Assembly (NCBI RefSeq): GCF_018616375.1
Contig: NZ_JAEQBB010000001.1
Coordinates: forward strand, 434,001 to 498,000
Reading direction: 5' to 3'
DNA: 64,000 nucleotides
DNA from: Exiguobacterium sp. J17977
GTDB lineage: Bacteria > Bacillota > Bacilli > Exiguobacteriales > Exiguobacteriaceae
The position numbers and the translations under genes were made by a program. A model generated the notes under the pieces. That model had not been told where the DNA came from and made no database searches. It worked only from the letters and a program-made list of their open reading frames with translations. This document shows, in pieces, positions 61,739 to 63,200 of the stretch; within the stretch, counting starts at the first letter, position 1; each line of letters opens with the position of its first letter.

Positions 61739-62242
61739 TCAGTCGTTCCGTTGATGCGGCAACGGAATCGTCAACACGTTCCAGTTCTCGCCCGCGAATA
61801 CTTTCGCGAGAAAGACAATCTGTCCGACGTGATAGCTGTAGTGCGACACTTGCTTCTCAATCGCCCAGATGACGGTCTTCTCTTCACCGCGAATGAAGAC
61901 GGTCTTGCCGAGGTCTTCTGGCGTGAGGCTTGCCAAGACGTCGTCCAACAGTTGCCAACGTTCGTCCCACGTCGCCATCAGTTCGGCGTGGGACTGTTGT
62001 TGATCCTCGAACTCGGCGTCGCGGTTCCGGTCCGGCTTCTCGCCGTCCGTCGTCAAAAAGTCGGTCCAGCGCGACTTCATGTTGTTCGAGATGTGCTGCA
62101 CGATGACCGTGAGCGAGAGTGTATCTTTCGCTAGCACACGATGCATGTCCTCGTCGTTCACTTGCTTCAACGCGTCCTCGGCGAGCTGTTTCTGTTCCTG
62201 GAAAATCGAGCGTACCGTTTCAAGATAGCGAGCTTCAAACAT
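61739..62242 (-). CDS. DinB-superfamily protein (DUF1572)
   Basis: A 167-residue four-helix protein of the DinB/YfiT superfamily, DUF1572 type. Metal-binding His residues appear in LTVIVQHISNNMKSRW (about 45-60) and VSHYSYHVGQIVFLAK (about 134-149). Function unknown; many relatives are thiol-dependent transferases. AAAGGAGG precedes the ATG. Confidence 0.82.
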   Translation of the reverse strand: MFEARYLETVRSIFQEQKQLAEDALKQVNDEDMHRVLAKDTLSLTVIVQHISNNMKSRWTDFLTTDGEKPDRNRDAEFEDQQQSHAELMATWDERWQLLDDVLASLTPEDLGKTVFIRGEEKTVIWAIEKQVSHYSYHVGQIVFLAKVFAGENWNVLTIPLPHQRND

Positions 62243-62325
62243 GGAATGACCTCCTTTGGATTCCTACTAAGCATACCTCAATCTAAACGTGATAAAAAAT
62301 AATAGTAAAATAGTGAAAATCAAAT

Positions 62326-62331
62326 TATAAT
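62326..62331 (+). promoter_or_regulatory. -10 element of the candidate RNA
   Basis: Perfect TATAAT in an AT-rich stretch. A -35 is weak (TAGTAA, 17 bases upstream). Confidence 0.45.
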
Positions 62332-62337
62332 TGAGTA

Positions 62338-62492
62338 TGAACCGTGCAAGACGCCACCGCGCGATCGGTTCTTGGGTGCCCTGTTTAGGTTTTGACGTGA
62401 GTCATGTCGCGTCTATCTCTTTTCGGTTTGGGGGTTCACTCGCAAAGAGAACCGACCGCGTTTGTCCGTGAGTGGATGAGCGCGGTTTTTTT
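62338..62492 (+). ncRNA. Candidate structured noncoding RNA (about 155 nt)
   Basis: A GC-rich stretch with no frame, between a TATAAT and an eight-base-range T-run. ACCGCGC (62356-62362) can pair with GCGCGGT (62480-62486), and TCGGTTC (62365-62371) with GAACCGA (62449-62455), giving a long rod. Alternatively ACCGCG (62455-62460) pairs with the same CGCGGT (62481-62486) to form a terminator. A rod with two folds is reminiscent of 6S-type RNAs, but I cannot assign a family. Confidence 0.45.
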
Positions 62493-62499
62493 GTATGCG

Positions 62500-62527
62500 A
62501 AAAGGGAGGGCCGCGGCTCTCCCTTTT
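62500..62527. terminator. Bidirectional terminator
   Basis: AAAAGGGAG (62500-62508) pairs with CTCCCTTTT (62519-62527) with an inner GGCC/GGCT. It ends the DUF2225 gene on the minus strand. Confidence 0.8.
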
Positions 62528-63191
62528 AGACGTGTTCGATTCTAAAGTCTTCCCAGTGTGACCGGGCCTGGGTACGAATTCGCTCCGACACTTCCTTGCT
62601 GCCGAGCAAGATGCCGTACCAACGCCGCGCGTCCTCATACAGACCGAGCGCGGCCGACAAGTCAGCGATTCGCAGCATGAGCTGGTCGTACGGGAGGCCG
62701 GTCCGGACTTGGTCCGTGTACGCCTCTTGCACCTCGTTGTACTTGTCGAGCGTCCGCTTCATCCATTCCTTCTCGGACGCCTCGTCGCCCGTCAGGCGAT
62801 ACATCCAGACGAGCCGCATGCCGAGCATGGCGACGACGGACGGTTTCTGGCCGCTCAATTGGGCCGTCATCACGGCGAACTTATACAGCCGGATGACGTG
62901 TTCGGCCGAACGGTCGCCCGTGAGCGCCTCGGCGTTGACGCGGTCGAAGTAGCCCGACTCGAGCGCCTCACGATTATTTTTCCGCACTTTGTCAAAAGAG
63001 TCGTGAAACACGAGTTGACAGTGACTACAGACGGTCGGCTCATAAAAGTATGGGTTGGCGCCATCGTACGTCGTATAGCCGTCCTTCGCGACGTCCTGCG
63101 GTCGGATGTGGCGCGACAGGACGCGTGGCGTCTCGCTCTGTTTCAAACAATACGGACATTTCACTTTTTTTGAAAAGATATGTTCTGCCAT
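62526..63191 (-). CDS. DUF2225 family protein
   Basis: A 221-residue protein. An N-terminal zinc-ribbon-like part (KVKCPYCLKQ, then CSHCQLVFHD about 55-64) is followed by TPR-like helices (about 95-215, FAVMTAQLSGQKPSVVAMLGMRLVWMYRL). Function is unknown; family members are common in Firmicutes. GAGGTG precedes two adjacent ATGs; the second (63191) has better spacing. Confidence 0.82.
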   Translation of the reverse strand: MAEHIFSKKVKCPYCLKQSETPRVLSRHIRPQDVAKDGYTTYDGANPYFYEPTVCSHCQLVFHDSFDKVRKNNREALESGYFDRVNAEALTGDRSAEHVIRLYKFAVMTAQLSGQKPSVVAMLGMRLVWMYRLTGDEASEKEWMKRTLDKYNEVQEAYTDQVRTGLPYDQLMLRIADLSAALGLYEDARRWYGILLGSKEVSERIRTQARSHWEDFRIEHV

Positions 63192-63200
63192 CATCTCACC

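Follow-up and report, generated by a model that had tools for sequence, protein, structure and literature searches.

The window analysed here, a stretch of 64,000 nucleotides from Exiguobacterium sp. J17977, carries near its 3' end a putative stand-alone RNA unit of about 155 nt on the plus strand (62337-62492), which combines a TATAAT box and an intrinsic terminator with a rod-like fold that joins the two ends of the molecule. It is flanked on one side by a DUF1572 (DinB-like) gene (61739-62242, minus strand) and on the other by a DUF2225 gene (62526-63194, minus strand), which is convergent with the unit. As the upstream gene is divergent and the downstream gene convergent, the unit probably does not serve as a leader for either gene. 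The start of the small RNA was placed from the -10 box TATAAT (62326-62331) and its end from the T-run that finishes at 62492, and the coordinates of the original prediction proved right. A -35-like TAGTAA (62303-62308) lies 17 nt 5' of the -10 box and is weak, with three of six letters matching TTGACA; the ATAGTAA of this region is retained in 8 of 11 copies of the unit. A -10-like box is present in nine copies (TATACT in the second of two clades), is deleted in genome G018 and is unrecognisable in the degenerate copy of G012. A pattern scan of 62200-62600 returned no promoter-like site and recorded a terminator-like site at 62454-62487 (two such sites in this interval versus 0.4 expected). 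The GC content of the RNA is 53.8%, so that its earlier description as GC-rich is apt relative to the upstream flank (28.7%) but not relative to the window average (53.9%). A separate hairpin 3' of the RNA (62499-62529, no strand assigned) is read from the sequence and probably ends transcription of the convergent DUF2225 gene. This hairpin is strong and is kept in the clade of the window, with other hairpins in its place elsewhere.

Two long-range stems had been claimed for the RNA, and both were recovered in the predicted fold, one as a closing stem and the other as a long rod that runs from 62359 on. ACCGUGC (62341-62347), which forms the closing stem from the 5' side, pairs with 62480-62486 in 69 of 70 alignment cells. 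It is followed by a 5' junction segment, AAGACGCCACC (62348-62358), in which 9 of 11 positions are invariant (n=10) and the mean unpaired probability is 0.52, and by a second copy of ACCGCG (62356-62362), the CGCG of which also opens the rod. The rod (62359-62461), with arms at about 62359-62382 and 62431-62461, contains an internal loop and an apical hairpin with the loop GUCAUG (62395-62412). One strand of the internal loop, UCUC(C/U)UUUCGGUUUG (62416-62430), is near-invariant, complementary to ribosome-binding sites and unpaired with a predicted probability of about 0.65. The intrinsic terminator hairpin with its T-run occupies 62455-62492, and its 3' strand (62480-62486) is common to the closing stem. 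All these elements are on the plus strand, and column c of the alignment used below corresponds to window position 62333+c.

Folded as a single sequence, the whole unit gave a z-score of -2.43 with 1 of 200 shuffles as good, and without the terminator a z-score of -0.23 with 78 of 200 shuffles as good. The single-sequence fold is thus no more than mildly unusual, and it is the relatives that establish a fold beyond chance. Pairs were counted in an alignment of 10 of the 11 species' copies, with the degenerate G012 copy excluded and one of two contigs taken for G009. The counted structure was that of RNAalifold plus pair 31-123 and minus pair 49-98, both versions having 45 pairs of which nine were doubly changed. 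The consensus energy was -52.7. Column-shuffled alignments averaged -29.0 (sd 3.5) and none of 500 was as low, and the same held (0 of 500) for columns 1-128 alone. Shuffling of whole columns preserves the relatedness of the sequences. In the rod structure 97.1% of cells pair across the ten sequences, and pairing fell to 31-54% when partners were slid by one to three columns. Of 500 letter shuffles, none attained the observed share of paired cells, count of doubly changed cells or covariation score, and 31 reached the count of doubly changed pairs and 72 that of pair types. Of the nine doubly changed pairs, seven lie in the two helices of the rod. Sorted by origin, seven go back to a single split between two clades, and those at columns 43-106 and, in the apical hairpin, 65-76 arose inside the first clade. 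Pair 31-123 occurs as G-U, G-C and A-U, yet as A-C in four sequences. We regard 62337-62492 on the plus strand as very probably a real structured RNA, a judgement drawn from comparison of sequences.

The 3' strand (columns 147-153) is able to pair with columns 8-14 in the closing stem, with columns 122-128 in the terminator and with columns 23-29 in the second ACCGCG copy. An A replaces G152 in the second clade, and there columns 9 and 123 both have U in place of C, by which the closing-stem pair (C-G to U-A) and the terminator pair are kept. Column 24 stays C: three of the ten sequences lack the corresponding pair of the second ACCGCG copy, and in these three the other six of its seven pairs with the terminator 3' strand are still possible. 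The earlier claim of competition for the terminator strand therefore stood in altered form: the 5' closing strand and the terminator 5' strand co-vary with the 3' strand, but the second ACCGCG copy does not, and covariation gives no support to it as a conserved competitor. The tracking of the 3'-strand change amounts to one clade-level event, and covariation within the terminator itself, equalled by 37 of 500 shuffles, is modest. When the energies of the rod and the terminator form were computed for all ten sequences, the rod was the predicted minimum in nine, by 0.3 to 7.0 kcal/mol over the terminator form, and the terminator form was the predicted minimum in G018.

Of 101 genomes, BLAST detected the RNA stretch in 11, which belong to a single genus and include the window's own. 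With a covariance model, 11 of 19 Exiguobacterium genomes had a strong match (63 to 190 bits), and the 19 genomes searched from the sister genus had none at E<=0.1; in these searches the best first-look candidates per genome were scored, 78 in one run and 150 in the other. A 22-base pattern from the 3' end occurred in nine genome contigs, all Exiguobacterium and derived from 8 of the 11 RNA-bearing genomes, E. aurantiacum, E. alkaliphilum, E. chiriqhucha and E. profundum among them. The exact 3' pattern was absent from viral contigs, and the RNA was found on plasmids and phages in neither search. There were no paralogues, each RNA-bearing genome having one strong match, with the exception of G009, in which two near-identical contigs matched and contamination is estimated at 8%. 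Weak model matches of 45 to 72 bases (E 0.03 to 0.96) in G002, G013, G015, G005 and G007 were set aside; the two best of these align mainly with the terminator end. The RNA is new and lineage-restricted.

A strong match is lacking in eight of the 19 genomes: seven have a short spacer between the neighbouring genes in place of the whole unit, and G001 holds a tentative remnant, which matches at 60% across 55 of 157 columns and which the model search did not detect. The RNA is distributed patchily over a midpoint-rooted three-gene tree, and the unit is dispensable in several lineages. The G012 copy is degenerate, scoring 63 bits versus 171-190. In G018 a short deletion takes the promoter stretch and spares the body of the RNA, in which the closing stem has lost one pair and has another weakened; this locus may be a natural promoter knock-out. 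The RNA is more alike than the upstream noncoding stretch in 8 of 10 RNA-bearing relatives (G006, 88% versus 56%; G004, 78% versus 45%; G002, 93% versus 91%), the near relatives G011 (88% versus 93%) and G018 (91% versus 93%) showing the reverse. The RNA of G009, a genome that sits among species without it, is 94% identical to that of the window, and the halves of the flanking coding regions are 80-87% identical (87% for the 5' half of the DUF1572 gene, 84% and 80% for the DUF2225 gene). This tract can be read as recombination from the window's clade or, on another reading, as stronger constraint on the RNA.

The rod-like fold had been taken as a hint of a 6S-type RNA, a suggestion that we could not uphold. 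No Rfam family reached its gathering score anywhere in the window. At the locus a search at E<=10 with permissive filters returned eight Rfam matches, all far below their thresholds and none of them to 6S (RF00013), SRP or T-box models, the last two having been proposed as checks together with 6S. The original description as an unassigned structured RNA is thus supported: pairing conserved in relatives, one of the two points named beforehand on which it could fail, was looked for and found. The genome's own 6S RNA lies on another contig (C12:282135-282321, 78.8 bits) and is its only RF00013 match, and 6S RNA was present in 61 of 61 genomes searched. In a global alignment of the two RNAs the score was below the shuffle mean and 384 of 500 shuffles scored as high, which means that no similarity in sequence was detectable. 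Passages of PMC3847290 give a closing stem, a central bubble and a terminal arm as features of 6S RNA, and describe it as binding the housekeeping RNA polymerase and templating product RNAs. The RNA found here is roughly similar to 6S in length, in its tied ends and in its internal bubble. It differs from 6S in the missing model match at the locus, in the 6S gene that the genome has elsewhere and in the short predicted arm beyond the internal loop, which has only six to seven pairs. The candidates SRP RNA (no family-model match at the locus) and T-box or other riboswitch leader (no match at threshold and no same-direction downstream gene) were likewise rejected.

The internal-loop strand UCUCYUUUCGGUUUG (columns 83-97) is near-invariant, with 10 of the 11 columns 83-93 unchanged, and is mostly unpaired in the predicted ensemble (about 65%), and the surrounding helices vary. 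We take this strand to resemble the anti-Shine-Dalgarno end of 16S rRNA. Its complement, allowing at most one mismatch, occurred at five places outside the RNA in the window's genome, two of which are on apparent ribosome-binding sites. The only perfect complement (locus L081, about 1490-1530) is at the ribosome-binding site of a CpsD-like, tyrosine-kinase-like gene. This kinase gene, named from its open reading frame, adjoins glycosyltransferase-like genes. A one-mismatch complement is at the ribosome-binding site before flgD (also named from its open reading frame), and another complement with at most one mismatch lies inside a terminator-like hairpin. With up to two mismatches there were 53 places in the genome versus 18 for the reversed pattern, an excess to be expected of any Shine-Dalgarno-like complement. 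As any such complement finds ribosome-binding sites, the two matches on them are weak evidence. Exact matches across the genus, beyond the RNA gene and flgD, were found at only two further places, in G008 and G018. Across 19 genomes the flgD site, with duplex energies computed from one standard loop and one U-type loop instead of each species' own, was equally good in the RNA-less G005 and G007 and poor in the RNA-bearing G003 and G010; flgD was not supported as a target, since its site does not follow the presence of the RNA. The junction segment AAGACGCCACC, used as a seed with at most one mismatch, matched 30 places (the RNA gene included) versus 2 for the reversed pattern, an excess that may be due to coding composition.

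Our main reading, to which we give roughly even weight for and against, is that the unit would encode an independently transcribed regulatory sRNA, the internal loop of which would mask the ribosome-binding site of at least one mRNA and so block its translation. As judged from the sequence, RNA polymerase would start just 3' of TATAAT and stop at the hairpin with its T-run, at which stage the two terminator strands would be paired together. After release, the 5' end would take the 3' strand and the upstream CGCG the terminator 5' strand, giving the rod; covariation backs the rod and terminator pairings, and the order of events is our proposal. The rod would then frame the large internal loop and expose its 3' strand, which could pair with the ribosome-binding site of an mRNA. 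This reading is favoured by the conserved, compensated pairing, by a syntenic unit with promoter-like and terminator sequences that is absent in its entirety from seven genomes, by the near-invariant and mostly unpaired loop strand with its two complements on apparent ribosome-binding sites and by the weakened closing stem of the promoter-deleted G018. Against it speak the flgD site that is unlinked to the RNA, the loop that is unpaired to no more than about 65%, the weak -35 region, the origin of seven of the nine doubly changed pairs in one clade split and the two shuffle counts of 31 and 72 in 500. A further version of the mechanism, in which a lineage-specific RNA family has a deliberate two-state fold, so that the 3' strand ends transcription and is then captured by the 5' end and the closed rod presents the internal loop to a ribosome-binding site or a protein, is tentative, and we consider it rather unlikely.

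The rod with its tied ends, and the conservation of both internal-loop strands (invariant columns: 9 of 13 in one, 13 of 18 in the other) between variable helices, would also fit an RNA that binds a protein through the rod and the open loop, for example an RNA polymerase mimic outside the 6S family or the partner of some other protein. The missing 6S match at the locus, the genome's separate and dissimilar 6S RNA and the distal arm of only six to seven pairs argue against this alternative, which we consider rather unlikely. A CsrA sponge of the CsrB kind is not indicated, since the RNA contains a single GGA. The three strands that can pair with the terminator 3' strand, two of which track its change, are in turn reminiscent of attenuators such as the T-box, in which strands likewise compete for a terminator, and could mean that the 5' part decides on read-through past 62492. 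Such a cis-acting conditional terminator is quite unlikely: DUF2225 is convergent and no same-direction gene follows, the second hairpin stands at 62499-62529, no riboswitch or T-box model matched at threshold, and the gap between rod and terminator form, ranging from 0.3 to 7.0 kcal/mol in the nine rod-minimum sequences, gives no sign of fine tuning.

Patchy retention raises the question of a non-functional relic, in which the pairing would reflect past function only. Ten of 19 genomes lack the RNA or have a copy that seems decayed (the eight without a strong match, the degenerate G012 and the promoter-less G018), and in G011 and G018 the RNA is no more alike than the upstream stretch; against this, nine copies retain a -10-like box and most pairs, and the RNA is the more conserved of the two stretches in the other eight relatives, which makes a relic very improbable. 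A short protein gene, with an ATG at 62337, 44 codons and a stop ending at 62471, is open in the window and, ATG included, in 5 of 10 sequences. The start is absent in the other five, G011 has an internal stop, G004 and G010 have a one-base deletion, the sequence shows no ribosome-binding site and the changes follow pairing. With a frame broken or startless in relatives, a coding role was rejected as highly improbable.

For the regulatory sRNA of the main reading, trans-acting control of translation is the likeliest class of function, a view that we hold at about even odds by analogy with known sRNAs. RsaE/RoxS and LhrC are C-rich, Shine-Dalgarno-blocking sRNAs of Firmicutes. IsrR and FsrA are of this kind as well, and with these two, as presented in passages of PMC9410917, the Exiguobacterium RNA shares an intergenic location, a predicted terminator of its own and a conserved pyrimidine-rich segment, single-stranded by prediction here, that could pair with a Shine-Dalgarno sequence. 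Unlike IsrR, whose C-rich regions occupy hairpin loops and the 5' end, it has its UCUC(C/U)UUUCGG in the internal loop of a rod, and no Rfam family matched the locus at threshold. A literature search on 6S RNA in Exiguobacterium returned nothing, and one on Exiguobacterium sRNAs found none described singly among the papers listed; PMC10837837 gives numbers of program-predicted sRNAs and describes no individual RNA in its abstract and passages. What the locus offers is a specific RNA gene, backed by comparison between species, whose presence and absence form a natural series in one genus. This series includes a copy without the promoter stretch, and the role of the RNA is thereby testable by comparing close species.
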